64,000 nt of DNA from Mesostigma viride (Eukaryota; Streptophyta; Mesostigmatophyceae; Mesostigmatales; Mesostigmataceae): NCBI GenBank assembly GCA_009746045.1, contig RPFO01000026.1, positions 69,501-133,500 on the forward strand, given 5' to 3'. The notes under the pieces are model-generated. The model saw nothing but the letters and a program-made list of their open reading frames with translations. It was not told the origin of the DNA and searched no databases. Shown here piece by piece: positions 10,209 through 58,792 of the stretch (position 1 is the stretch's first letter; each line of letters starts with the position of its first letter). Position numbers and translations under genes: made by a program.

Positions 10209-10387
10209 CTAGTGTCTATTTACCCAGAGGCCTCAATTGAGGCCTTTTGGCTCAATTGAGGCCTTTTTCACCAAGGTCACCTGGGGACGGTAATTTTGGC
10301 GGGAAGGACCGGTCCTATGGGTCGTCCGGCCCCAGTGGCGCGAATCTGGTATATGAGCTGAGCGTCCTGACCCGTTGGGGTCGACAG

Positions 10388-10538
10388 AGTTGTACAAGCT
10401 ACTGCTTATACTTTTTATGCGCAAACCTTTTTGCTAAGGTTAACGCATATTCTTACATCCTGCGCAGATGTAAGAATATGCGTTAACCTTAGCTAAAAGG
10501 TTTGCGCATAAAAAGTATAAGCACTAGCTTGTACAACT
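10388..10538. repeat. Left long palindrome of twin-palindrome element
   Basis: 151-bp dyad with about 75-bp arms and a centre at CTGCGCAG. Mismatches at AGCT/AGCA and CACTAG/CAGTAG positions relative to the right copy. Confidence 0.92.
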
Positions 10539-10765
10539 TAGAACCGGCGCGGCGCGGAAGTCACGGGTTCGAAACCTCGTGGGGACAGTGCCGAGTAGGG
10601 ATTATTTGGGAGGATCCGCCGGGGCACCGGTCGGACCTAATTAATCGCCTCGCGAGGTAGATATCGGACCTTCCCGGGATTAATATCGAATTAGTAATTC
10701 GATGCGGAAGTAAAACCCTAGTTAGGGAGCCGCTTAATATTCCGCCCCAACGCGCAAAGGTTTTA

Positions 10766-10917
10766 AGTTGTACAAGCTACTGCTTATACTTTTTATGCGC
10801 AAACCTTTTTGCTAAGGTTAACGCATATTCTTACATCCTGCGCAGGATGTAAGAATATGCGTTAACCTTAGCAAAAAGGTTTGCGCATAAAAAGTATAAG
10901 CAGTAGCTTGTACAACT
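10766..10917. repeat. Right long palindrome of twin-palindrome element
   Basis: 152-bp near-perfect dyad centred on CCTGCGCAGG. It is the same sequence as the left copy. Confidence 0.93.
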
Positions 10918-10922
10918 GACAG

Positions 10923-34712: not shown

Positions 34713-35658
34713 CGCAGCAGCAGCAACAGCAGCAGCAGCAGCAGCAGCAGCAACGGTCACCACAGCAGCAATGGCAACAGCAGCAACCCCGGATGCAGCA
34801 GCAACAACCCCAGACGAGACCACAATGGCTACCACCTGATCCAGAGCAGCAGAGAGACGAGAATGAAGATACCCTGCACTACCGCCATCAACAGCCAGTC
34901 ACCGGGCGGCCAACGCATCCTTGGGCAGGTCGGGGGCGGCCCCAGGGACCTCCACCGGGCCCCCCACACCGGGGCAGACGCAGAGTGTCCTTCGGCAGCA
35001 CGTCCCTGTTACCCACGGCGCTATGGTATTCGGACGAGGAAGGGGAGGTCCCAGGGGCAGATGGCGAGTTCGATGACCTGGAAGGGACTAACGAGGCGGA
35101 CGAGGGAACTGTCACGCAGGGCCCGCCCGTTGGTACTCATAGACCACGGACCAGCCCAGGGGAGACCAGGAGCAGTGTCACCACCAGAGACGAGGAGACT
35201 CACACGCCAGTCCAGCGCCCGGCACCTCAACCGCAGCGCCCACGGGTGCTTGACCAAAGTGCGGTCCCCTCGCCTGCGCCTGCGGGCAACCTCAGCTTCA
35301 GCAGGGTGGCCTTGGATGACCCGGGGTACGAACACCCCTCATCCGTCCAGGTGCGGCGGACTCATGGTACGCCGCCCAGATCCAGCTCTCTCCCCCGGTC
35401 GCAGCCCCCCGACTTCGGCGATATCCCCCACGTAGACGTCGGTGGGCCCGTCACCGCCGCGGTAAAGGCCCCACCGATGCCCAATTTCAAGAATGTACCC
35501 AAGCTGCACGCGGACATGAAACCGCGCGAGGTAGAGGAATGGGGACGCATGTGGCGACGGCAGTATACCATCTGGCGCAATCATCACAACTGGCAGCTGG
35601 CCACCAGCGATCTGATTGATCTAGTGATTAACTCCTGTATGGACCCCTCGGTGATAAG
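34310..35658 (+). pseudogene. Gypsy Gag, N-terminal part (interrupted)
   Basis: ORF starts MPTRSQTRNARD. About 35 Gln-rich residues in several runs (34608-34830) are encoded by CAG/CAA repeats, followed by a Pro/Arg-rich linker. A capsid-like segment then begins (PNFKNVPKLHADMKPREVEEW, RRQYTIWRNHHNW) and is cut after DPSVI by the inner Copia LTR at 35659. Removing 35659-43476 and one ATAAG copy puts the frame into register with 43482-44481. Confidence 0.85.
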
Positions 35659-36274
35659 AGTTAACGTAAAGGATTTACGTTAGATGGATAGAGATTGTTA
35701 CGCTCTTTCCAACGGCACCTTGAACGCCTCATTTGGTTAAGGAACGTAAAAGTTATGACGTTTCCTAGGCTGTGCCGACAGTACCCGGCGCGCCACTGTG
35801 GGCGCGTACGGACACAGGATGTACAAGTGTCACTTTGATAGTCCGCAGGACGTTGACAGGACTTGTACAGGACTTGATGGTCAATTGATAGGTAGGCGTG
35901 CTGTAGCGCGCCAGGACCTATGAGACAATTGATGCTGACTAGTGTACGGATAGGTCCACAGGACTAGCCGTATGGACAATTGATAGATCTGCGCGCCAAA
36001 GGCGTGCCAGAGTCTGTGTAATCAATTGATTGACAGTTCAGCTGTGACAGTGCAGCTGAATACTTGGACGCGTCCCTAGCAAGCTATATGAGTGACTTGG
36101 TCACACCGGGACGCTAGTTCTTGCGTGCACGTTCTCTTGGCACTGCGACCCTGTCGTCTGTGCTGCGTGCAGTCTTGGAAGTGACGTGACTTACGTCTGT
36201 GTTTCCTTGTTATTAATAAAGGCAACTTCCTGCAAGAACCATGGCGGAATTCGTGGCATTCTACCCTCACAACT
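35659..36274 (+). repeat. 5' LTR of inner Copia-like element
   Basis: 616 bp. Contains four CAATTGAT motifs (35882-36030) and an AATAAA signal at about 36215, consistent with an R/poly(A) region near the 3' end of the LTR. Confidence 0.95.
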
Positions 36275-38428: not shown

Positions 38429-40033
38429 ATGAAGACGTCCTTGACAGCTGATGCAGCTGTAAGAATGTCTGACCCTATGCATCCTCGTGCTGGGCACGAG
38501 GGTGGACCTCTCATTTTGAGAGAAACCAATGTACAACCACAGAGGGGTGTGAAGGCCTCTGGTGGTATGCATGTGGTCCCTGCTGGCGGTCCAGGTGTTG
38601 GGCATGAGCAGGGTGACTCAGGCTCTGAGTCAGAACAGGATGGAAGTCAGCATGGTGATGCTGGACAACCTGACAGCACAGTCCTGACTGTGCCAGGGAC
38701 TGCTTCCTCTGTGTACCAGGAGTTGGGTGCCCGAATCCACAACATGTTTGGGCATGCCACTTCTCTGTCAAACAACTTTGCCTTCCGTATGGGCAGGGCA
38801 CCCCTTCTTAAGGCGTGTCAGCAAGCTGCCTCACGGTGTAAGTGCCAGTTGTCCTCCAACAAGCCCAGGAAATCACATGCCAAAGCTCTACCTCAGAGCA
38901 TTGGTGATCTGCAGTGTGATATCCAACACATCAGGGGCATGCAACTGTTGGTGTGCGTGGACAGGTACACGAAATACAAGGTGCTGGAGCATTTACCTTC
39001 TATGAAGAACAGGTACTTGCTGGCTGCCCTGCAGAATGTAAGAGCCAAGTTTCCTACCACAAGGATCCAGGTGGACATGCAGTTTCAGCATCTCAAGGGT
39101 GATCCTACCCTTCCTGAGTTGCTGGTTACACCTAGGGAGGCTCATGGGCAGCAGGGTGCTATCGAGAGGGCAATCCAGGAGGTCAAGAAATTGATCATCT
39201 CTGAAGACTGGGTACCCTTGTCTGCACCTGCACTTGTCAGGAGTGCATGGCTGAGGAACGTGGAGCAGCAGCTGAACAGCAGGGTTAACTTCTACTATGA
39301 TGGAGTTGCTGTCAGCCCAATGGGTCTATATCATGGCCTGTGCCCACCACATGTGCTGGAGGGCTGGAAACATGCTGCACATGTCACCTTTGCCAAGCTG
39401 AGGGAGAAGGACCGGGGTTGGAAGATGCTGGAGCCACAAGTGGGTCAGAAGGTCCTAGCTTGGAAGGAACCTAGCCTTTATGGCAAACGTGGTAGCTGGA
39501 GTCCTGGGGTGGTTACCCAGGTTGATGAAGCTAGCCACGCATGCTTGGTCAGCATGGAGGACGAACCAAAGCATGTACACCGGCTGAGTTGGTCATATGT
39601 CAAGCCTAACCTGATGAATGAGGGCAGTCAGGCACAAGGCTCACAGGATCTGCAGGATTTTCAGGTCCCAGGTGACATCACTGACGCAACGACCACATCT
39701 GTTGCAGGGGAATCTGTCAGCCCTGGCCAGGTTGCAGAGGTACTTGTTGAACAGGCTGCAAGGTCAACAGCTGGGGAGTCAACTGTCAAGCCCAAGGCAC
39801 TAACCAAGCCCAGGGGGACAAGTTTGGCTGGATTGATTGGGGCTCTACAAAGGGCCAAGAAGCAGCCCAAGGTAGCCAAGCTCAGGTGGCATGGCAATCT
39901 GGGGCTGGACACTGCCTTAGAGGTAGACACTAATTCTCAGGTTCCATCATTGGGACCAGGGCTGCAGCAGGGTACAGCATGTCTGAACCCAGCTATCAGT
40001 TTGTGTCTGACTTCAGTGGCGGGGTACACGTGA
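38429..40033 (+). CDS. Inner Copia-like integrase and start of protease-like domain
   Basis: 534 codons. Zinc-binding region with HNMFGHATSL then CQQAASRCKC (about 100-150). Catalytic core: LQCDIQHIRGMQ, VDRYTKYKVLEHL, IQVDMQFQHLKGD, QQGAIERAIQEVKKLI. Second Asp to Glu spacing is 29 residues, as in the outer element. C-terminal domain: GQKVLAWKEPSLYGKRGSWSPG. Near the end, LEVDTNSQV is the protease-like active-site candidate (DTN for DTG). One base later the frame should shift to that of 39979-41190, where SIIG completes the motif. Confidence 0.82.
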   Translation: MKTSLTADAAVRMSDPMHPRAGHEGGPLILRETNVQPQRGVKASGGMHVVPAGGPGVGHEQGDSGSESEQDGSQHGDAGQPDSTVLTVPGTASSVYQELGARIHNMFGHATSLSNNFAFRMGRAPLLKACQQAASRCKCQLSSNKPRKSHAKALPQSIGDLQCDIQHIRGMQLLVCVDRYTKYKVLEHLPSMKNRYLLAALQNVRAKFPTTRIQVDMQFQHLKGDPTLPELLVTPREAHGQQGAIERAIQEVKKLIISEDWVPLSAPALVRSAWLRNVEQQLNSRVNFYYDGVAVSPMGLYHGLCPPHVLEGWKHAAHVTFAKLREKDRGWKMLEPQVGQKVLAWKEPSLYGKRGSWSPGVVTQVDEASHACLVSMEDEPKHVHRLSWSYVKPNLMNEGSQAQGSQDLQDFQVPGDITDATTTSVAGESVSPGQVAEVLVEQAARSTAGESTVKPKALTKPRGTSLAGLIGALQRAKKQPKVAKLRWHGNLGLDTALEVDTNSQVPSLGPGLQQGTACLNPAISLCLTSVAGYT

Positions 40034-41190
40034 AGGTACTGGGTGAGGTATTCATTCCTATCCTTGGACAGGACACTGCTTTTTGTGTCTTGGAGGGCTA
40101 TCAAGGACCTGCTCTTCTGGGGCAGAATTTCCTATGCCAGGATGGGGTAGTGATCACGTCCTCTCTCCTGACTAAGGAAGGGGCTGGTCAGGTCCCACTG
40201 ATTAATTTCAGGACCACTCACCTATCACGTGCAGTAACCAGGACGGTTAAGCGTGTGCAAGTGTGCCAGGGGCAGGAGCCCTTGGTTGATGACCTCATAC
40301 TGCCAGCTGCTAGTCATCCAAGCAGTTTGGGCATTGGTCCTCACTCACTTGCTGGACACAGCCCTATCAACTACCAAGGCCTGGTGAAGCTCATGTCCTC
40401 TCCCATTATGTGTCCCCAGGTCACACTGGGTCTGATTAAATCTGGGGAGGACTGGATCTCCAAGAAATGCGTGGAACCTGTCAATGACCTGCCTCCTGCA
40501 CGACGTCTACTCAAGCTCAAGTTTGTCATCAAGATGAAGGAGGTGGACGGGGTCAAGGTACCACATGTCAGGCCAGTGCTGAATGAGTTCAAGGGTACTG
40601 GTGAGTGCACTGCTGAGGAGTTGTATACCCCTGGCATGCTGCATGATACTTGGAGGCTGCTGCTGTGTGTCTTTCTAGGCCTTCTCAACAAGGGCTTGGA
40701 CTATGGCTCAGTGGTGATAGACTTCAAGAGGGCATTTCTGGAGGGTGATGCAGATGTGGCACAGGAAAAGTGGGAGGGCAAGACGCCTTTCTATGTTAGG
40801 GTGCCTGCTGTATGGAAAAGGGACATCCACACGGAGTTCCTTAAAATCCTCAAGGGCCTGGAGGGCCTGAGGTCAAGTCCAATAATCTGGAGGGAGACTC
40901 TCAACCGTTTCCTGAAGGAGCATTGCAACTTGAAGGTCTCTCCTGTAGACCCCTGTCTGTTTCTGGGGCAATGGGAAGGCCTGCCAGTGTATGCTTCGCT
41001 GCACGGGGATGACCTACATCTGATAGCTCCCACGTCGTGGCTTAAGGAGCTGATCTCCATCATTAAGTCCAAGTTTCCTCTGGGTAGGGAGCAATGGCAG
41101 GTGGAGAATGAGCCTCTGCTGTTTGTGGGCATGGAGGCCACACTGGTGAAGAAGGGGGGAGTGGCGTATGCTGCTGGTGGGGGGCAATGA
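39979..41190 (+). CDS. Inner Copia-like protease C-half and reverse transcriptase
   Basis: Frame carries the second half of the protease-like fold (VLEGYQGPALLGQNFL), then RT. Motifs: LLKLKFVIKMKEVDG, VLNEFKGTG, first catalytic Asp in VVIDFKRAFLEGD, and the catalytic box YASLHGDDLHLI in place of the usual YVDD. A typical Copia RT would have the LYGLKQ-type loop near 40860, where LEGLRSSPIIW is seen. It runs out of frame at 41190 and RNase H continues in the frame of 41168-41911. Confidence 0.85.
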   Translation: MSEPSYQFVSDFSGGVHVKVLGEVFIPILGQDTAFCVLEGYQGPALLGQNFLCQDGVVITSSLLTKEGAGQVPLINFRTTHLSRAVTRTVKRVQVCQGQEPLVDDLILPAASHPSSLGIGPHSLAGHSPINYQGLVKLMSSPIMCPQVTLGLIKSGEDWISKKCVEPVNDLPPARRLLKLKFVIKMKEVDGVKVPHVRPVLNEFKGTGECTAEELYTPGMLHDTWRLLLCVFLGLLNKGLDYGSVVIDFKRAFLEGDADVAQEKWEGKTPFYVRVPAVWKRDIHTEFLKILKGLEGLRSSPIIWRETLNRFLKEHCNLKVSPVDPCLFLGQWEGLPVYASLHGDDLHLIAPTSWLKELISIIKSKFPLGREQWQVENEPLLFVGMEATLVKKGGVAYAAGGGQ

Positions 41191-41911: not shown

Positions 41912-42860
41912 GCTGGTGCATGGTTATAGGGCATTGGAGAGCAGATTGTGTGGTAGTGTCAGCATTGTGACTGGCATAATACCTGTATTTTAGTCTGTAC
42001 TAAGGCTCATGGACCATGGTACACTCACTCTGATTTTAATCAGGATACAGCCAGGTTTTGGCTGGGGTTCATGCTGTTGACTACACAAGGTTGACAGGTC
42101 CATTACAGACCATGTATTCTATTTTAAAAGAAATGTATATTTGTACATACTTCTCACAATGGTCTGGGAACCTTTATTCTGGGGTTTATAGGGCGGGGTT
42201 CGATTCCCTGGTATTATGTTTCTACAAGCTGGCCTGTTCAGGTGTTTGCCTGTTCAGACTTCCCTAGTTCCCCAGGGCAGGATTTAATTGTTGCCTATGT
42301 GTTTCATTTTGTCATTTGTTTGCTGTGGCAGTTTACCATCTGGCAAGTAGACGGGCGCCGTAAGACGGGCGCCAATAGACCCCTGTTGAGAGAATGACAG
42401 GCAAACTATTGTAATACGCCTTACTTTGTCAAGTGGTATTTTAATTGTCATGGATTTATTGTACTTATATTGAATATGTACTGGGTTTTATGGGATTAGT
42501 ATCTGGGATTAATGTAACTCACCGCCAGAAGGTCATTGTACTGGAGGCTCTACCGAGGTGATGGGATTAATTCCTGGAGAAGACCTCATAGAATTAACCT
42601 GTATGTATTTAATTTTGTGTGCTTCTAATATCTGGTGGTACTCTGTAATGCCACTTCCATAGGTTTTCTCCATTTCTCATGAAATGGTTTTCCCTGTGGC
42701 AGATCTGTTTCTTTTCCAGTTCCTTAAAAGAAAGGGCTGGGGGAATGGCAATGGCCATTAAAGACATCTGTTCAAGCTTCAAGCTGGAGTGAAGGACATT
42801 TCAAGCTACTTCAAGGGTCCCTGGCAGGGGATGTGATCCCTAAAGAAAAGAAGGGATTGG
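41912..42860 (+). other. 3' untranslated region of inner Copia-like element
   Basis: No ORF. Contains GGGGTTCGATTCCC at about 42193-42206, which matches a tRNA T-arm but lacks the rest of a tRNA. A purine-rich AAAGAAAAGAAGGGA at about 42842-42856 immediately precedes the 3' LTR and is the likely polypurine tract. Confidence 0.6.
42842..42860 (+). promoter_or_regulatory. Polypurine tract of inner Copia-like element
   Basis: AAAGAAAAGAAGGGATTGG abuts the LTR start AGTTAACG. In the outer copy the same spot reads ...ACTGG before AGTTAG, so TGG precedes the LTR in both. Confidence 0.6.
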
Positions 42861-43476
42861 AGTTAACGTAAAGGATTTACGTTAGATGGATAGAGATTGT
42901 TACGCTCTTTCCAACGGCACCTTGAACGCCTCATTTGGTTAAGGAACGTAAAAGTTATGACGTTTCCTAGGCTGTGCCGACAGTACCCGGCGCGCCACTG
43001 TGGGCGCGTACGGACACAGGATGTACAAGTGTCACTTTGATAGTCCGCAGGACGTTGACAGGACTTGTACAGGACTTGATGGTCAATTGATAGGTAGGCG
43101 TGCTGTAGCGCGCCAGGACCTATGAGACAATTGATGCTGACTAGTGTACGGATAGGTCCACAGGACTAGCCGTATGGACAATTGATAGATCTGCGCGCCA
43201 AAGGCGTGCCAGAGTCTGTGTAATCAATTGATTGACAGTTCAGCTGTGACAGTGCAGCTGAATACTTGGACGCGTCCCTACAACCTATATGTGTGACTTG
43301 GTCACACTGGGACGCTAGTTCTTGCGTGCACGTTCTCTTGGCACTGCGACCCTGTCGCCTGTGCTGCGTGCAGTCTTGGAAGTGACGTGACTTACGTCTG
43401 TGTTTCCTTGTTAATAATAAAGGCAACTTCCTGCAAGAACCATGGCGGAATTCGTGGCATTCTCATCCTCACAACT
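42861..43476 (+). repeat. 3' LTR of inner Copia-like element
   Basis: 616 bp. The first about 415 bp are identical to the 5' LTR. About eight differences, including two compensating one-base indels, fall in the last 200 bp. Confidence 0.95.
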
Positions 43477-43481
43477 ATAAG

Positions 43482-44481
43482 CATCTTGAACTGTGAGAGC
43501 ATCGCGTCCCAGTCATACCCGCAAACCTTGGCGGAACTGATGGACCGAGTGCGTCGCAAGCTGGTGCCCCCAGATGCTACACTCCACGAGCGGATGGCCT
43601 TCAGCAAGCTGCGCCAGGGGACCACCCCATATCGCGAGTTTCTGTCTAAGTTCGAGTCCAGCGCCGCCTACCTGGCTGACATGACCTGGTACGAGTACAA
43701 GAGCAGGTTCATCGAGGCACTCTGCCCTGAGCTGCAGGACGAGGTATTCAAGCACTATGCTGATGTCCCTTGGGAAGAGTGGGACATCTTGAATATCCAG
43801 AGGTATCTCCTAGAGGTGGCCGACGTAGTGGCTCGCGGGCGTGCACCCTCAGTGCGCCGTTTCTTCAGACCTGCTCCCCCGCGACGGGTGAATCAGATGT
43901 ACTCCACTGATTTCGCCGGCGAGGAGGAGGACGAGTACCTCGACGACCCTGACGAGGGCTACACTGACCATGGCGTCAACGCGATCGACGCTAGCAAGGC
44001 GCGCTGCTTCATGTGCAGCGAGGTGGGGCACCTCAAGCGCGACTGCCCCAAGCTCCGGGGCAAGAACGCCAGTCGTGGGACAGGAGAAGGGACACCCAGT
44101 GTTCGTTTCTCCGGCCCGGCCTTCGGCAGCCGCCCCGACTCCTCCGGTCCTCGGGACCGACCCCGCAACGCGGGTGAGCGTGCGGCTCGCCTGCAGCACG
44201 CCAGACAGGTCCCGACGCAGTACCAGCAGCCGCGACCACCCGCGACCAGCTCTACCAAGGGTGTGTTGCGTGCGGTCAACGAGATGGAGGCGCGGCGACA
44301 GTCCTCCTCTTCCGGCCAAACGCAGGCAGTGGCTGGCTACGAGTATGACGACGAGGAGGGGGCTGACGAAGAGGAGGAGGGGGGGAAGAGGGCGGGTGGT
44401 CGGGCGAGGCGGCCTCCCGTCCCACCGCTCCTCGGGAGTAGTAGCCCTGCCCATGGGCTTGGGTCCCGGGGTAGGGGATAG
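43482..44481 (+). pseudogene. Gypsy Gag, C-terminal part with CCHC knuckle
   Basis: Continues the Gag frame after the inner Copia insertion (ISILNCESIASQ). It has a capsid-type region (LRQGTTPYREFLSKFESSAA, YEYKSRFIEALCPELQ), then a zinc knuckle CFMCSEVGHLKRDC (Cx2Cx4Hx4C), then an acidic/Gly-rich tail. The stop at 44479-44481 overlaps the pol frame, which is +1 relative to gag, by about 500 nt. Confidence 0.9.
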
Positions 44482-47458
44482 GGTAGAAAAATCAGATGGT
44501 AGCCCAGACGCGGAGTCAACTAGAGTAGAGGTAGACGTCAATAACGTGGCCGCAGACGCGTCCACCCAACCGGCGGCGCGTGCATCTCAAGGAGATTCGC
44601 GGCATCTGTTTCTTTTCAGCGGAGGGTTACTGGTCCCTCCCACCGTCCTTGATCCGTATTTGAAGGAGAAAACGATCATGGACGTGAAGTTCCTGGTCGA
44701 CACCGGCGCCTCCACGTCCTTCATCAACGAGGCCCTGGTGCGTCGGCTGGGCCTGGTACCCCGGCCTCACACCACGGCAGTATATGTCACCTACTCAGAC
44801 GGTCGGCGACACCAATCGCCGGGCCTAGCAGACATCAAGGGTGTGCTGCAGGGCACGCCGGTGGACCTGGTGGCGACTATTGCGCCGCTGGGCGCTGCCG
44901 ACATCATCATTGGAGTGGACTGGCTGGACAAGCAGGATGTGGACATCAGTGTGCGCCGGCGGGTAGTTTGGTTTCCGGATGGTTCATTCTGGTGCCCAGA
45001 CAGCGAGTATAGGGCACAGGCCGCGGAGGTCCATAACATTACACACGAGCGCTCGGCGGACGGGCCTCGACCAGCGTCCCAGATCCTGATGAGTAGCAAG
45101 ACGCTGGCGCGCCAGCTCCGGAAGGGCAAGGAGTACGCGATGTATCGCATAGACCTGGACAGCACTCAGGCTCTGCTTAACGAGATTGGTGCCGGATTCA
45201 CACCGGACGAGCTGGCGCGGTTCAATGCCGTCCTGGAGAAGCGCACTACCCTTTTTGCGGATCGCACCCCCCAGTTCCCTCCCAATCGATCGGTGTTACA
45301 TCGTGTCCAGCTCCAGGAGGGTTCCGGGCCTACCGTGTCTCCCATGTACCGCATGGGCCCAGTCGAGCTGGTGGAGCTCAAGAAGATCCTCATTTCACTG
45401 CTCGACGCTGGGCTCATTGAACCCAGCAACAGCCCCTTCTCAGCGGGCGTGCTGCTCGTTCCCAAGCCAGGAGGCAAGTGGCGTCTGGTGACGGATTACC
45501 GGAAGCTGAACGCCATCACCGTCAAGTCCCGGTATCCTCTACCGCGGATCGACGACATCTTCAACCGTGTCCAGGGGGCCACGTGTTTCACCGTCATCGA
45601 CTGTGCGGACGGGTTTTGGCAGCTGCGCATCGCGCCAGAAGACTGCCACAAGACCGCGTTCGCTACGCCCTTCGGTCACTATCAGTTTCGGGTGGCGGCA
45701 ATGGGGCTGTGCAATTCGCCTGCGTCCTTCCAGATGCTGATGAATGACATCCTCCGTCCGGTGATGGGCACAGCCCACTTGCCGCAGGTCTCCCAGGACC
45801 TGGCGGACCCGCAGAAGGGGGCGCGCCCGCCCTGGACCTACAAGCGCACGTGCGCGCTGGCGTATCTGGACGACATCCTGGTGTACTCCAAGACGTTCGA
45901 GGAGCACCTAGAGGATGTGGACGCCGTGCTGCAGATCATGGAGGATGAGCACCTTTCGGCGCGGAAGGCCAAGGTGCGCGCCGGCCGCTGCGTGCCGTTT
46001 CTGGGCCATACCTTGTCCGCGGACGGCATCGCGACCGACCCTGAGAAGATCGAGTCCGTCCAGCAATGGCCTGTCCCTACGGACGTGAAAGGGGTGCGCA
46101 GCTTCCTGGGATTGGCATCTTACTACCGACGGTTCATCCCGCGGTTTGCCACCATCGCCGCCCCGATCAACGCTCTTCTCAAGAAGGGTACCCCGTTCCT
46201 TTGGGCTGAGCAGTGCCAACAGGCTTTTGAGGCGCTTAAGCGCCACCTCACCACAGCGCCAGTCCTTATCCTGCCGGACCCGGCCCTTCCTTTCGTCGTG
46301 GCTACGGACGCCAGCAAGGTGGCCATCGGGGGTGTCCTCCTGCAGGACCAAGGCAAGGGTCTTCAGCCCATCGAGTATATCTCACGCACAATGATTCCGG
46401 CGGAGCGGAATTACCCAGTGCATCAGCAGGAGCTTCTGGCAGTAGTCTACAGCTGCCACACGTGGCGTCATCATCTTCTGGGGGCCCAGTTTTCGGTGGC
46501 CATTAGTGAGCAGGGGGATCTCGACCCCCACCGCCTGGTGATCCACACCGACCACCGGCCGCTCACCCACCTCCTGGTGCAGCCCAACCTGACGCCCCGC
46601 CAAGCGCGGTGGATGGAGTACTTGTCACAGTTTGCGCCATTCAAGATCCAATACGTCAAGGGCGCGGACAACGTGGTGCCAGACGCCCTTTCGCGACGGG
46701 CGGACTATTGGTTCTACGAGGACATGGATGTGCTTCATACCACTTGCGTACCAGTGGCCGCCCCGGGGACCGCCTACGGCGCGGAGCCACGGTCTCCCCG
46801 GGCCCGCCACCTGTTTCATCTGGGACACACCACCAGCGATGACTTGTCACCTCTCTTGGAGGAGACGAGTGCCCACGAGGACGTGGACGCCCCCGGGGAG
46901 GGGGAGGGATCGCATACGCGCATGCCCCTTAGCCATGTGGTGCCGCCCCAGGGAATTTTTCAGCTTCAGCCGATCGGCCCGCCCACAGTCTTCTCCGAAT
47001 TCGTCAACCAGGCGAGCGCGGAGACAGACCCGGCCGCGGACGCGTTCACAGTCACGTCGGACCTGGAGACGATGATCAGTCGTTTCACGGTCACGGAGGA
47101 AGCGGCGCTTGAAGCCATCCGGGCGCATCCCCAGCAGATGGGTGCCTACCCTTGCAAGTTCCAGGATGGACGCCTGTTCGTGAGTGTCCAGCCGGAGGAA
47201 TGGCGGCTGTATGTCCCGGAGCTTTGTAGGGCCGCCTTGCTTCACGAGCTCCACGATTCGCTTCTAGGCGGACATCAAGGAAGCCACCGTCTTTATCCTC
47301 GGGCCCGCAAACATTTCTACTGGCCAGGGATGAAGGAGTATATTGAGACATATGTGCGCCAGTGCCCCTCGTGCCAGATCATGAAGTCCAGGAACACGGG
47401 CTCGCAAGCCGTCCCAAGACGTTACCTGATCCGATGGGTCCTTGGGATTCTATCATGA
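43970..47458 (+). CDS. Gypsy Pol: PR, RT, RNase H, IN zinc finger
   Basis: Open for 1162 codons. The first about 170 overlap gag and are probably not translated as such. Protease: FLVDTGASTSFINEAL (about 44690) and IIIGVDWLDKQ. RT: LVTDYRKLNAITVK, ATCFTVIDCADGFWQL, AMGLCNSPASFQ, and catalytic AYLDDILVYSKT (about 45860). About 25 extra residues lie between MNDILRPVM and the YLDD box compared with usual Gypsy RTs. RNase H: VVATDASKVAIGG, HQQELLAVVYS, IHTDHRPLTHL, and a GADNVVPDALSRR end. IN H2C2: HELHDSLLGGHQG...CPSCQ. The frame is lost near 47400 and integrase continues in another frame. Confidence 0.92.
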   Translation: MASTRSTLARRAASCAARWGTSSATAPSSGARTPVVGQEKGHPVFVSPARPSAAAPTPPVLGTDPATRVSVRLACSTPDRSRRSTSSRDHPRPALPRVCCVRSTRWRRGDSPPLPAKRRQWLATSMTTRRGLTKRRRGGRGRVVGRGGLPSHRSSGVVALPMGLGPGVGDRVEKSDGSPDAESTRVEVDVNNVAADASTQPAARASQGDSRHLFLFSGGLLVPPTVLDPYLKEKTIMDVKFLVDTGASTSFINEALVRRLGLVPRPHTTAVYVTYSDGRRHQSPGLADIKGVLQGTPVDLVATIAPLGAADIIIGVDWLDKQDVDISVRRRVVWFPDGSFWCPDSEYRAQAAEVHNITHERSADGPRPASQILMSSKTLARQLRKGKEYAMYRIDLDSTQALLNEIGAGFTPDELARFNAVLEKRTTLFADRTPQFPPNRSVLHRVQLQEGSGPTVSPMYRMGPVELVELKKILISLLDAGLIEPSNSPFSAGVLLVPKPGGKWRLVTDYRKLNAITVKSRYPLPRIDDIFNRVQGATCFTVIDCADGFWQLRIAPEDCHKTAFATPFGHYQFRVAAMGLCNSPASFQMLMNDILRPVMGTAHLPQVSQDLADPQKGARPPWTYKRTCALAYLDDILVYSKTFEEHLEDVDAVLQIMEDEHLSARKAKVRAGRCVPFLGHTLSADGIATDPEKIESVQQWPVPTDVKGVRSFLGLASYYRRFIPRFATIAAPINALLKKGTPFLWAEQCQQAFEALKRHLTTAPVLILPDPALPFVVATDASKVAIGGVLLQDQGKGLQPIEYISRTMIPAERNYPVHQQELLAVVYSCHTWRHHLLGAQFSVAISEQGDLDPHRLVIHTDHRPLTHLLVQPNLTPRQARWMEYLSQFAPFKIQYVKGADNVVPDALSRRADYWFYEDMDVLHTTCVPVAAPGTAYGAEPRSPRARHLFHLGHTTSDDLSPLLEETSAHEDVDAPGEGEGSHTRMPLSHVVPPQGIFQLQPIGPPTVFSEFVNQASAETDPAADAFTVTSDLETMISRFTVTEEAALEAIRAHPQQMGAYPCKFQDGRLFVSVQPEEWRLYVPELCRAALLHELHDSLLGGHQGSHRLYPRARKHFYWPGMKEYIETYVRQCPSCQIMKSRNTGSQAVPRRYLIRWVLGILS

Positions 47459-48766
47459 TGGACTTCATCGGCCCGTTCAAGAAGGCGAAGAGCGGCAACA
47501 GCATGGTCCTGGTGTTCGTGGACCGCCTGACGCGCATGTGTCACTTGGCCCCGTGTCCGGCCGACCTCACTGCGGAGGAGTGCGCCAAGATATACCTGAC
47601 GCACGTGTTCCGGTTCCACGGGCTCAGCCGACAGTTCATCTCCGACCGCGACAAGCTCTTCACGGCCAAATTCTGGCAGGAGTTTTTCGAACGGCTGGGC
47701 ACCAAGGTGTCGCTGGGCACGGCCTACCACAGTTCGTCGTCACATCTGGTGGAGCGGTTGAACCGCACAGTGCAAGAGACCATGCGACACTACACCGACG
47801 CGGTGGGCAGCAATTGGGAGGAACTTCTGGGCTTGGTGGAGTTCTCCCTGAACAATGCCCCCCAGGCCGCCCACGGATTTACCCCCTTTTTCCTCAACTC
47901 TGGCAGGCACCCTCTCACGCCTCCCGACTTGCTTATGAGCCCCGGACTGGGAGAGGATCAGGTCAAGCTGGACACACGCCAAGGGGTTGATCGCTTGCTG
48001 CAGCGGATGCACCAGGCTCATAACAGTGCAGTCCAGGGCTACCGCGCCGCGACCGAGCGGTATCTGGAGAGGACAGCCGGCAAGCGGGATAACCGGGCGC
48101 CGTCCATTGAAGTGGGCGATTGGGTCCTGGTAGAGGGCCCACAGATCGGACGATTCTCACACAAGGTGGAGAAGTGTATGCGCGCGGGTCAGTATTCGTT
48201 ACGGCAGGCCCTGGATCGCATCGTGGCAATGGATGACGAAGACCAGAATGATGGGAGCGAGGATGACGACTCCGATTCTGATGACTACCCTCCACGCCCT
48301 CTTCCTCGTCCTCCTCCAAGGGATCCACCTTCTGGGGGCTCCTTGGAGGGCGGCGCAGGACATCGTCCTGTGACGCGTTTCGAGGCGCCACCGCCGGCGA
48401 CGGGCTGGGGGCGCCCACCCGGGCGCGGGTCTCGCCCGCGGTCCACGGGTTGGGGCGGGGGCAGTCAACCAGATTCTCGGCGTGCTCCGGAACGACCTGC
48501 ACGTCGGCGCTCGCCCTCACCGTCCTCGCGCTCGCGTTCCCGTTCGGACTCGGGAACGGAGGTACGCACTGCTCGTCGAGCGTCACCACCACCTCGTCGC
48601 CCGGCTGATCGTCACTGGGAGCGCACGTGGGGGTCGGCGGTGGAATTGGAGCGAGAGTCTCGGCGACCGCGGTCGGAAACGACGGGAGCTGCTCCGGCTA
48701 GGACAGAACAGCCGGCCGGGGGCGAGCCCCCGGTTGTGGCCCCCTCAGGTCCTCCGACGGATGCGG
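47362..48766 (+). CDS. Gypsy integrase core and Arg/Ser-rich extension
   Basis: The core shows MMDFIGPFKKAK, ISDRDKLFTAKFW and HLVERLNRTVQETM, a DD35E arrangement by count. It is joined to the upstream zinc finger by a one-base shift between about 47385 and 47420. A GDWVLVEGP segment (about 48115) is the IN C-terminal beta-barrel, and no chromodomain is seen. The tail is acidic (NDGSEDDDSDSDD), then Pro/Arg/Ser-rich (RRSPSPSSRSRSRSDSG). The frame continues past the twin-palindrome insert into 49308-50374. Confidence 0.9.
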
Positions 48767-48972
48767 AGTTAGGTTAAAGAGTGCCGGAACCTTTTGCCGC
48801 CTGAGGCAAATCGGGCCGGAACACTATTTTGCCCGGAATAACCACTTCCGAGCACCCAAGTTAATTCGGCCGAATTAACTTGGGTGCTCGGAAGTGGTTA
48901 TTCCGGGCAAAATAGTGTTCCGGCCCGATTTGCCTCAGGCGGCAAAAGGTTCCGGCACTATTTAACCTAACT
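48767..48972. repeat. Left 206-bp palindrome
   Basis: Dyad centred on AATTCGG/CCGAATT. The only arm mismatch is at 48778 (G where T is expected). Arm segment reads GGGCCGGAACAC and its exact complement. Confidence 0.95.
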
Positions 48973-49096
48973 AAAACCTGGCCTCGTGGAGGGTGGGTTG
49001 AATATGAGACATCCGCCTGGGCCACTGAGCACGCACCACTAAATGCGCCGGAGCTGTCCGGATTCGAACCCCTGACCTCCAAGGTGCACAGGTTTT
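48973..49096 (-). other. tRNA T-arm-like spacer of twin-palindrome element
   Basis: On the minus strand it reads GGAGGTCAGGGGTTCGAATCC, which looks like a variable loop plus T-arm (B-box GGTTCGAATCC exact). No D-arm, anticodon arm or acceptor pairing could be found, so it is not a tRNA gene. Confidence 0.5.
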
Positions 49097-49302
49097 AGTT
49101 AGGTTAAATAGTGCCGGAACCTTTTGCCGCCTGAGGCAAATCGGTCCGTCACACTATTTTGCCCGGAATAACCACTTCCGAGCACCCAAGCTAATTCGGC
49201 CGAATTAACTTGGGTGCTCGGAAGTGGTTATTCCGGGCAAAATAGTGTGACGGACCGATTTGCCTCAGGCGGCAAAAGGTTCCGGCACTATTTAACCTAA
49301 CT
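49097..49302. repeat. Right 206-bp palindrome
   Basis: Same as the left copy except GGTCCGTCACAC in place of GGGCCGGAACAC, with matching changes on its other arm. One arm mismatch (AAGCTAATT/AATTAACTT). Confidence 0.95.
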
Positions 49303-50374
49303 TGCGGGCCAAGAGGAGCCTACCTTCCTTGTCTCCTTGGAACCACCGGAGCCTACCTTCCTAGTCTCCCTGGAACCACGTCCCCGGCCTGCACCAGCCG
49401 GCTCATCAATGCCACGTCCTGCGGAGGGACACATCCGGCCCACTTCGTCGGGTCGACCCTCGCACCCTTCCGCGGAGGAACCGTGCCTACACACCATGAC
49501 AGAGACGCGACCTCGGGTCGCGGAGGATCCCAGCGGAACGGGCATTCTGGTACCAGCGGAGCCCGTGATGCGTTTGGAAGCGCTCGTAGCTGCGGTACAA
49601 TCAGGACAGGACCTGATACAGCGCCTGATGGTCCAGCACGGTCGTCAAGGCGATCATTCTGCAGCCACCTCAGTGGGTTATGATGCGGCTTCCAGGGCTC
49701 CTGGGTCATCTCACGAGGAGTGGTCAGTGGGGGACTTCATACGGCCGGTACCGGGTAGAGCGGTGAGGCATGGTGGGCCAGGACCTCGCACGGAGAAGCT
49801 TTGTGTGACATTCGAGGGACCTCCGGCTTTTCAGGTTCCCCCGGGTACGCACCTACCTGCTCCTCTGGTGTTTCAAGCGGGTCCTTGGTTCGCTGTGGAT
49901 CGCGGGGCTTACTGGGAACAGGTAGAGATCACCTTTTTGCCCCAGGTTCCCCTGCCCCTGCCGCAACCCGACGACCCTCGTTTTCCCACTGCGGTGGGGC
50001 ATACTGTGCGGTTCGGGTCCGAAGACTGGTGGGATTGGCGATATCAGGTCGATGGGGTGGGGCACGTGGTGACGCCTCCCAAGGTGGCTCCAGCGGAGGG
50101 GCGTGCCTTTCTTAATCTGGTGGCGCCCGATATCGCAGGGGCCCGGACGGCGTCGATCAACGATGATCACGTGCGTACGGAGGTTTTCATGATGGGGGTG
50201 CACTTTGTTCGCGAGCACCGTTGTGGGGTGGTGGATCGGTCGGCGCTGACACTCCTGTTCACCCATCCCCAGTACCTCGCTGGGTTCCTGTCCATGTGGC
50301 CCAGAGGTTCGTGGGTGGAGCTGTCCAGGCTAGCTGGGCCGGCAGAAGGTGTCCCCCTACCAGGTGGCTTTTGA
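49303..50374 (+). CDS. Gypsy post-integrase 3' domain, unrecognised
   Basis: Continuation of the integrase frame after the palindrome insert. It opens with a tandem EPTFLVSLEPP / EPTFLVSLEPR duplication, then a Pro-rich stretch. A helical stretch follows (MRLEALVAAVQSGQDLIQRL). The globular part is rich in Trp and Phe (GPWFAVDRGAYWEQVEITF, GSEDWWDWRYQVDG, ALTLLFTHPQYLAGFLSMW). I recognise no chromodomain, envelope, dUTPase or methyltransferase motif. It has no transmembrane segment or signal peptide, so it is not envelope-like despite the position. Unknown function. Confidence 0.65.
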
Positions 50375-56610: not shown

Positions 56611-58792
56611 GTAGAATTTCTAAAAAGTGGGGGAACTATGCGGGAATATATAATTTGGTCCCAATATGTTTGCCCATTGTCCTAGGGAAAATGTGACTAA
56701 AATAGCGTCTTTTTCTATTTTTAGCGCGTTACCGGTGTATGGTGGGGGCTAGTACCCCCCCCAAGTGGCTGGAATTTTTTTTTAAAATCATATTTATGGT
56801 CCCCAATCATCATTGGATTTTTAGCACATGCATAGGTATGGTTTCCATAAAAGTGCCCTTTAGGCATGTCCCCTCCCCTTAAGTTGGGTCCGAGGTTTTT
56901 GAGGGGTCAACCCAACTTAAGGCGTGAACCCAACTTAAGGCGTGAATGACTCTACTAAATTCTACTAATTTGACGATACTTAATTTTACTAATTTGAGCT
57001 AAAGATACTTAAAAAAATACTAATCTGAACTGCTTTGAACTAAGAATGCCAAAATCCAATTCGACCCAACCGAAGGCGTGAACTTAAGCCAACCAAGCGT
57101 GAATGACTGTACTGTACCATGTGCGGCGAGGGAAACCACTGAACTGAAGTGAACTGAACTGAAGGTACTGTACTGTAAGGACATCTGCTGCTGACTGCGG
57201 CGTGGGACACAACAACAACAACAACGGTAAGGACACCTGAGGCTACCCTGACTGTACCGTAGTCATCACGACTTTTTTTGCCAGCACACTGAGCACAGGC
57301 GTCCGGAATCTCAGCGTCCGGAATCTCTGAGGCGTTGTTGAGAACGCATATTCCCGTATGCGGCGTCAACGTTGAGTTGAGTTGAGTTGCGAATACATTA
57401 CAGTACAGGCTGGTTAGGCTATAGTGATCCCCACCCCTGTAGTAGATATGCGGCGTGGGAGTCAACAACAACAGGCGTCCGGATCAGCGCTTCGTTTAGA
57501 CTTTTTTCCACAGCCGGCACCGCGCCGGCAACAATTTTCCTTGGCCGGTAGCCGGCGAATGCCGGCCAATAGCCGGCGTGGGCCGGCCACGAGCTGGCCA
57601 AGTACCTGGCTCTGTGGACTGAGGAGTGTGGAGGCACTCATGGAACGCGGGAATGATGCTGGTTGATAAACTTGATAGATGTTTGAAAACTACACCCCTC
57701 ACATTGTTTGTTTTACTAAATAATTATGAGGCGCGGCGTCGACCACCTGAGTGCAACGATAAATAAAACAAAAGATTCTTTTAATTTTTTAAAAAATAAT
57801 TATTCCTGAGCGTACTCCCCTGTCGTTTTTCATAGCTACCAAACAAACAAAGAAAGTGTAAATAAATATTCTTTGACTGCCCAACTGAAGCGCTTCTTTT
57901 GCGGTAAAAAACAAAGAATCTCTGGCTGAAAAATTTGCTCAGTTTTACTAGCCGTCAAAAGAGCAGTGCAGCCTAGTGCAGCCGGCTGGGTAGCCTGGGT
58001 TATAAAACAAAAAAAGAATTATTAAATTTCGCAGCTAGTTCAACGGTTGTTTGGTAACCAAACAAACAAACTAATCACTAATTAATTGGACGGGCACATT
58101 AGCACTTGCAACCAATAAAACGCTTTTTTCTAATTCCAAAATGCAAGGGGTGCCGGCGCTGCGGTGTTGTTGTTGTTGTTCTTGTTGTGTCCCACGCCGC
58201 ACATGGGCAGCAGAGAATCTACAGAGGCCGAGGGCCGGATACCGTATATTAGGCTGCGGTGTAAGTTGTGTACCTTACAGCATGAGGTGGGCCCCGCCGC
58301 GCCGGCACCTAGGAGAGCCAGCCGTCTGGCCGGATCCGCGCCGGGTACTTTTCTCCACAGCCGGATCCGTCCGGATCCGGCAGCCGGATCCGACGGATCC
58401 GGCTGTAAACGAAGCGCTGGTCCGGATCCAACCCGTATTTCTCAACGAAGATTCAGCATCAGAGACTTGGCCACAAATGAAGAGCGAGACGGACCCGGCC
58501 CATCCCTTGTTGGAGCGAAGCGGTCCGACATTGAGTGAGCTGGCCAACGTGAGGCAGGGAATTTGTTCGTACGAAATTCCGGCAGATGTTTAACCGGACC
58601 TGGGGGCGGTTAGTCGCGGTCGCTGTCAGATTCTGCCAGCACGAGGGCAAGCACCCCTTGCTCCTACCGAAAAGGCCAACGCCCTCGCCTGGTCAGTGGT
58701 CACATGCGCCGGAAAATCGCCACCATGTGTCCATGTCTGACCTTCCTCTAACGCCACTGTGACGTTGCGGAGTAACCTTTCACAGCTGACTG
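56611..58792. other. Intergenic, AT-rich and CCGG-rich patches
   Basis: Includes CTACTAA(T/A)TT-type short repeats (56945-57030). GCCGGC-rich palindromic clusters lie at 57510-57600 and 58360-58430 (several GGATCCG units). Related AACAACAAC-flanking motifs lie at 57200, 57450 and 58170. Short ORFs at 58141-58593 are unassigned. A diverged TIR-like element may be present, but I could not define ends. Confidence 0.4.

Follow-up and report, generated by a model that had tools for sequence, protein, structure and literature searches.

Near-perfect 206-bp palindromes of Mesostigma viride form chains of variable length that insert as units and duplicate five target bases

The stretch of Mesostigma viride DNA analysed here, hereafter the window, comprises 64,000 nucleotides of contig RPFO01000026.1. 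At positions 48767-49302 it contains an element (E1) that consists of two 206-bp palindromes separated by a 124-bp spacer. Palindrome P1 occupies positions 48767-48972 (arms 48767-48869 and 48870-48972) and palindrome P2 positions 49097-49302 (arms 49097-49199 and 49200-49302). As an earlier note on this DNA had stated, the arms are 103 nt long; a palindrome scan and arm comparison revealed that they are loop-free and 99% complementary, with one mismatch per palindrome. The spacer (48973-49096), which belongs to a 124-nt type and has the ends AAAACCTG and CAGGTTTT, is predicted to fold into an imperfect rod. Its minus strand carries at 49060-49070 the motif GGTTCGAATCC, which we take to resemble the B box of tRNA genes and which is part of a module, ARAACCKGYGC-N5-GGARGTCASGGGTTCGAANCC, common to E1 and the second element described below. 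The pentanucleotide TGCGG abuts E1 at either end, as the last bases of the left flank (48762-48766) and the first of the right flank (49303-49307), and is regarded as a target-site duplication on the basis of the flank comparison and of exact 5-bp duplications in the family. A Ty3/gypsy-type retrotransposon carries E1 on the 3' side of its integrase; the left part of this retrotransposon (43970-48766, plus strand) comprises frames with protease, reverse transcriptase, RNase H and integrase domains. When the flanks of E1 are joined and one TGCGG is removed, the upstream frame continues downstream; if both copies are kept, a stop results.

A second element, E2 (10388-10917), is built according to the same plan and lies 38 kb away in the window. 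Its arms are unrelated to those of E1, as a comparison of the two gave no alignment above chance words. E2 is composed of a left palindrome of 151 nt (10388-10538), a spacer of 227 nt (10539-10765) that carries the module on the plus strand with a B-box-like motif at 10566-10576, and a perfect right palindrome of 152 nt (10766-10917). All three arm differences are confined to one arm, the right arm of the left palindrome. The sequence GACAG flanks the element outside both ends (10383-10387 and 10918-10922) as its target duplication. A centre-by-centre scan of all 64 kb detected five palindromes with a score of at least 14: the E1 pair (100 each), the E2 pair (60 and 76) and one that scored 14. 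Further repeats of the window are a perfect 117-bp inverted repeat around a T-rich spacer of 51 bp (1927-2043 and 2095-2211), which lies outside E1 and E2, a 50-bp near-palindrome of CCGGATCC-like repeats (58357-58406), and 617-bp direct repeats of 98.7% identity (35658-36274 and 42860-43476) that surround frames judged Copia-like by eye and may be the LTRs of a single retrotransposon.

E1 belongs to a non-coding mobile family with many copies. Searches of the genome assembly (440 Mb in 2,243 contigs) yielded at least 206 matches for E1 and at least 168 for E2, counts in which both strands as well as overlapping parts of the same chain are included. Since only the best 40 candidates were scored of 1,180 for E1, 484 for E2 and 877 for the palindrome alone, these copy numbers are lower bounds. 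The exact E1 and E2 patterns had no match in viral contigs and GTDB contigs, and blastn detected neither element in plasmids and phages, all of these being collections with few or no eukaryotes.

The members of the E1 family share the structure P(SP)n, where P is a near-perfect 206-bp palindrome and S a spacer of 124 or 132 bp. We obtained 74 distinct E1 sequences, in which a site covered by overlapping loci may be counted repeatedly and identical sequences at different sites are counted once; six that are cut by the end of a locus were set aside, leaving 68. The 56 that bear exact target duplications comprise one sequence with n=0, six with n=1, 38 with n=2, four with n=3, three each with n=4 and n=5, and one with n=6, whereby every spacer match, including partial ones, contributes to n. 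The n=6 copy (L046) is rearranged and includes a spacer fragment; an alternative count assigns it n=5. Solo palindromes with target duplications were encountered among 12 candidate loci at two sites (L069 and L071) that have the same sequence. The commonest form examined is P-S-P-S'-P, with the second spacer inverted. This arrangement is present in 37 of the 38 two-spacer E1 sequences with duplications, and in it the B-box-like motif of each spacer adjoins the middle palindrome and reads outward. Among 100 of 1,162 places at which the module occurs in the genome, E1 clusters of two modules were divergent in 19 cases, tandem in one and convergent in none; these places overlap loci that had been fetched otherwise (C47 with the first sample described below), and most of the two-module clusters are sites also present in the fresh sample. 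The 13 two-spacer E2 elements are split between divergent (seven) and tandem (six) arrangements.

E1 chains insert as a unit and duplicate five target bases. Of the 68 distinct E1 sequences for which both flanks are available, 56 have an exact 5-bp duplication outside the whole chain, as do 15 of 17 elements of the E2 family. Ten of the 12 E1 sequences without an exact duplication either are fragmentary or lack part of an end as aligned, whereas the remaining two (L082 and L087) are not obviously so. The earlier note had proposed a search for empty sites with a single target copy. Such a search, conducted in the fetched loci and the window and with most junction-spanning matches set aside because they lay in tandem-repeat flanks, identified at least three clear paralogous sites for other copies of the family, all of which have a single target copy and align without gaps at the junction (L084 with window positions 46664-46843, 93%; L095 with L045, 93%; L093 with L045, 99%). 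The empty sites, the open frame across the joined flanks of E1 and the many differing copies with target duplications all argue against an assembly artefact, which would have undermined the earlier reading. Judged from the spacing of matches, several E1 copies (L020, L021, L032, L048, L049 and L079) apparently reside within arrays of tandem repeats of about 40 bp. At locus L032 (C2106:29500-39499), two adjoining E1 copies are repeated together with their flanks 4,810 bases further on, which represents a tandem duplication of insertions.

Although their arms are unrelated, E1 and E2 agree in their ends and in part of their spacers. In both, the consensus arm starts with AGTT-N8-TASTGC, a motif read by eye from the two families and from which the left end of the window's E1 deviates by one base (site 13). 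When the window was scanned blindly for pairs of AGTT...AACT that are 100 to 25,000 bases apart, have a 5-bp duplication and show no fewer than 11 inverted matches out of 20, E1 and E2 were the only elements recovered. The module ARAACCKGYGC-N5-GGARGTCASGGGTTCGAANCC opens both spacers on the B-box side with identical spacing. The sequence GGTTCGANNCC occurs three times in the window compared to a mean of 0.34 in shuffles; two occurrences lie within the spacers of E1 and E2, and the third is found at 42197-42207, outside any element of this kind. A 33-place pattern derived from the module matches the genome exactly at 1,162 places, as against none for the reversed control. As the 100 places tabulated all look E1- or E2-like, no third family was seen with this pattern. 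In the first sample (L001-L050), two sites distinguish the 124-nt from the 132-nt spacers of E1, with one site in either half of the fold; arm allele 6G is preferentially associated with the 124-nt type.

The spacers fold more stably than shuffled sequences (z between -2.1 and -3.0). ARAGORN predicted no tRNA gene in the spacers of E1 and E2, and no Rfam family matched the window at the gathering score, so that the B-box-like motif points to Pol III transcription from the spacer module only as a possibility. When introns were allowed, ARAGORN predicted a single tRNA, at 39539-40640 and with an intron of 1 kb, which is distant from both elements and probably a chance match. We considered whether the spacer could be a tRNA gene or a tRNA-derived SINE and rejected this idea, because only the B-box-like motif fits, the A box having been looked for by eye, and no tRNA was called. 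Likewise, miRNA families of Rfam that matched inside the palindromes at a relaxed threshold were discarded, as all remained below their gathering scores and any long perfect hairpin gives such matches.

The four arms of the window's E1 differ at five sites. At sites 49 and 53 one palindrome has G on both arms and the other T on both arms, and at site 54 A on both arms is opposed to C on both arms. The observation of the earlier note that differences between the palindromes are matched on their own opposite arm thus holds for three sites; at sites 13 and 95 the variant is present on a single arm only. For the family, E1 arm statistics were restricted to arms with a gap-free alignment across all 103 positions, and the element-by-element arm distances of E1 and E2, which underlie the tallies of hybrid E2 palindromes and the outer/inner contrast in the first sample, were taken from global alignments. 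The first E1 sample consisted of 42 elements or fragments with 107 gap-free palindromes; it was picked by similarity to E1, and many of its copies join a 124-type half to a 132-type half, with the junction of several lying within the middle palindrome. In this sample, arms differ on average at 0.96 positions within a palindrome, 2.24 between palindromes of one element and 3.24 between elements. When arms were re-paired within elements, the mean number of differences was 184 compared to 102 observed, and none of 2000 shuffles was as low. Arms are also homogenised in the six single-spacer E1 copies with duplications: those of one palindrome differ by 0-2, the two palindromes at 3-11 of 206 positions, and the number of covarying sites amounts to 3, 1, 0, 5, 3 and 2. 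Hence, covariation at one to five sites is found in five of these copies and in the sixth there is none, which makes the pattern of the window's E1 typical of such copies. Under the model favoured below, the covarying differences of the window's E1 mean that two haplotypes, each already nearly homogeneous, would have been joined by exchange in or next to the spacer.

The position of a palindrome within the chain matters less clearly. In the pooled E1 set, outer palindromes have a mean of 0.50 arm differences (two or more in 7 of 103) and inner ones of 1.47 (two or more in 18 of 53; p=7e-4 for the contrast, in a test that, like all our tests on arm pairs, assumes independence of pairs which are partly dependent). 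Identical arms were counted in 64% of the 103 outer and 43% of the 53 inner palindromes. The contrast was seen in the first sample (p=1.6e-5) but was not significant in a fresh sample of 20 stretches, 19 of them chosen for E1 and 12 having six gap-free arms (0.54 outer versus 0.75 inner, p=0.20). It is absent from E2, where two or more arm differences were tallied for 12 of 31 palindromes in outer and 5 of 17 in inner position, locus L098 being left out of the analysis. A crossover in an outer palindrome would swap flanks and lose the target duplication, and hybrids formed in this way would therefore drop from the counted set; the homogeneity of outer E1 palindromes may thus be a selection effect. 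The model that only terminal palindromes are homogenised or are rebuilt at each insertion was rejected on account of the fresh sample and E2, and is retained solely as part of a rival explanation discussed below.

Arms that face each other across a spacer (mean 1.26; two or more differences in 27 of 99 pairs) agree less than the arms of outer palindromes and no worse than those of inner ones. Taken together, palindrome neighbours are slightly closer than spacer neighbours (p=0.036, pooled E1). With increasing separation of the arms the mean difference rises from 1.00 for first neighbours (inverted) to 1.76 for second (direct) and 2.25 for third neighbours (inverted), a few odd pairs from rearranged copies being left out. 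Variants occur in haplotype blocks. The middle-palindrome arms of the two-spacer copies L036, L040 and L027 differ at five to six sites; in L036 and L040 each middle arm has the haplotype of the outer palindrome on the same side, and in L027 this applies to the left arm only. Of 32 rare variants, defined by their presence at one or two of 55 distinct insertion sites, 21 are restricted to a single arm. The remaining 11 are common to the two arms of a palindrome (three), to arms on either side of a spacer (one), to three contiguous arms (three), to all arms (one) or to non-contiguous arms (three), and runs of contiguous arms cross both palindrome centres and spacers. In the E2 copy L057, the same 5-nt insertion is present in all six arms. 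The earlier note had claimed that own arms agree better than the two palindromes do. This is supported by single-spacer E1 copies and by the shuffles, but not by the many inner palindromes that are hybrid. The pattern that it had named as contrary to its reading, namely palindromes matching each other better than their own arms, was indeed found in three of 17 E2 elements (L056, L059 and L060), whose left and right ends carry almost the same hybrid palindrome.

Such long palindromes should be prone to instability during replication, and their perfection consequently needs an active process. We favour, with about even confidence, a model in which E1 and E2 are non-autonomous transposons that use palindrome edges as ends and whose neighbouring inverted arms become homogenised through exchange or template switching. 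An enzyme acting in trans, most likely a cut-and-paste transposase or an integrase, would recognise the AGTT-N8-TASTGC ends. Such ends are predicted at both edges of every palindrome, and inner edges should be usable as well, so that any stretch from palindrome to palindrome would be a complete mobile unit. Adjacent inverted arms, either those touching at a palindrome centre or those facing each other across a spacer, could then recombine, take part in gap repair or undergo template switching, which would alter the length of chains and spread arm variants. The earlier proposal that one arm is copied onto the other is plausible in this form, that is, between neighbouring inverted arms, but such copying is not confined to one palindrome. 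Two observations do not follow from the favoured model as it stands. Free recombination of palindromes leaves the orientation rule for spacers in two-spacer E1 copies unexplained, and plain recombination does not predict the greater homogeneity of outer over inner palindromes in the pooled E1 set unless a selection effect is assumed.

The solo and tandem forms agree with terminal-repeat retrotransposons in miniature (TRIMs), and the main rival to the trans-mobilised transposon is TRIM-like retrotransposition. The elements would be LTR retrotransposons with a palindromic terminal direct repeat that is copied by reverse transcription, and chains and solo palindromes would arise by recombination between LTRs. 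We consider this unlikely. According to the excerpts of PMC6934838, TRIMs are shorter than 1000 bp, their short inner domain is enclosed by terminal direct repeats of 100-250 bp, and they form TDRx_I(x-1) arrays and solo repeats; with direct terminal repeats of about 206 bp, a total length mostly below 1 kb, solo palindromes and arrays of the same type, E1 fits this description. The same excerpts report a bivalve TRIM that likewise is without a clear primer-binding site, and inner domains with inverted repeats and tRNA-like segments. The nearly identical hybrids at left and right of L056, L059 and L060 are what LTR copying predicts, and terminal repeats match at both ends in several E2 copies. 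Duplication of five target bases would also suit an LTR-type integrase. LTRs as a rule have TG...CA termini and are identical at insertion. The termini of E1 and E2, however, are AGTT...AACT, and in five of the six single-spacer E1 copies the terminal repeats have differing haplotypes, contrary to LTR copying. For E1 copies, this sustains the view of the earlier note that the palindromes are unlike ordinary LTRs. Moreover, the E1 spacer begins with AAAACC on both sides, and inspection of the inner edges (AAAACCTG in E1, TAGAACC/TAAAACC in E2) disclosed neither a primer-binding site beside the repeat nor a purine tract. The inversion of spacers in nearly all two-spacer E1 sequences also speaks against this explanation.

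According to another explanation, the elements replicate as linear DNA that is closed by a hairpin at the centre of each outer palindrome, and opening and fill-in, as at parvovirus or poxvirus ends, would rebuild each terminal palindrome from one arm. Such a cycle would account for the homogeneity of outer palindromes in the pooled E1 set and for the middle palindromes of L036 and L040, which combine both outer haplotypes (in L027 this fits the left arm only). The two-spacer E1 copies are inverted dimers, such as hairpin replication produces. The outer/inner contrast on which this reading leans was nevertheless not significant in the fresh sample, E2 outer palindromes are hybrid as often as inner ones, and the excess in E1 may stem from the selection effect described above. 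We therefore regard hairpin-ended replication as improbable. The extended version, in which the inverted-dimer chains are concatemers of such replication and two families with unrelated arms provide a genome-resident analogue of parvovirus-like ends, likewise appears improbable. If true, the hairpin-end reading would amount to a new transposition route.

Finally, the elements might move in an ordinary way and be perfected after insertion by quasi-palindrome correction, in which a stalled polymerase copies the nascent strand, a process known in E. coli according to the excerpts of PMC7202029 and in line with the slightly closer arms of palindromes, outer and inner combined, relative to spacer-facing arms; we deem this hardly probable because rare variants are common to arms across spacers and to whole elements (L057), inner palindromes with five to seven arm differences persist that steady correction would erase, and haplotypes common to different insertions are left unexplained.

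Two families with unrelated arms and one design have moved palindromes as units and chained them in variable number. Long perfect palindromes are considered some of the least stable sequences that genomes contain. Because the haplotype blocks of the arms record copying and exchange of palindromes, the genome of M. viride represents a natural experiment on palindrome maintenance. In the literature surveyed, mostly titles and abstract openings together with excerpts of PMC12730594, PMC6934838 and PMC7202029, we found no description of palindromic terminal repeats in P(SP)n chains.

Several known systems share individual traits with E1 and E2. Polintons (Mavericks) have AG ends; a Polinton-type B DNA polymerase (PF03175) had no match in the genome, but also none in its 14 control genomes. 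Parvovirus- and poxvirus-type hairpin ends resemble the elements in having palindromic ends and inverted dimers, whereas E1 and E2 are short non-coding genomic insertions. Template-switch correction of quasi-palindromes makes arms identical as well (PMC7202029); it is a replication error process rather than an element, and it yields neither 5-bp duplications nor sharing across spacers. Foldback elements and MITEs such as Galileo, Tetris and Tm1 have in common with E1 and E2 long fold-back inverted repeats, a target duplication and variable non-coding copies. Like DNA transposons in general, E1 and E2 have terminal inverted repeats and a duplication of fixed length (56 of 68 E1 and 15 of 17 E2 elements, and three empty sites). 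They differ from foldback elements and MITEs by a terminal repeat that is both a complete palindrome and a direct repeat, by the 5-bp duplication and by the chain of equal palindromes. TRIMs produce a short target duplication. They share with E1 and E2 a short non-coding domain between terminal direct repeats of 100-250 bp, but in E1 and E2 the repeat is itself palindromic and ends in AGTT/AACT, neither a primer-binding site nor a purine tract is seen by inspection, the terminal repeats of most single-spacer E1 copies are unequal, and the spacers of the common E1 form are inverted.
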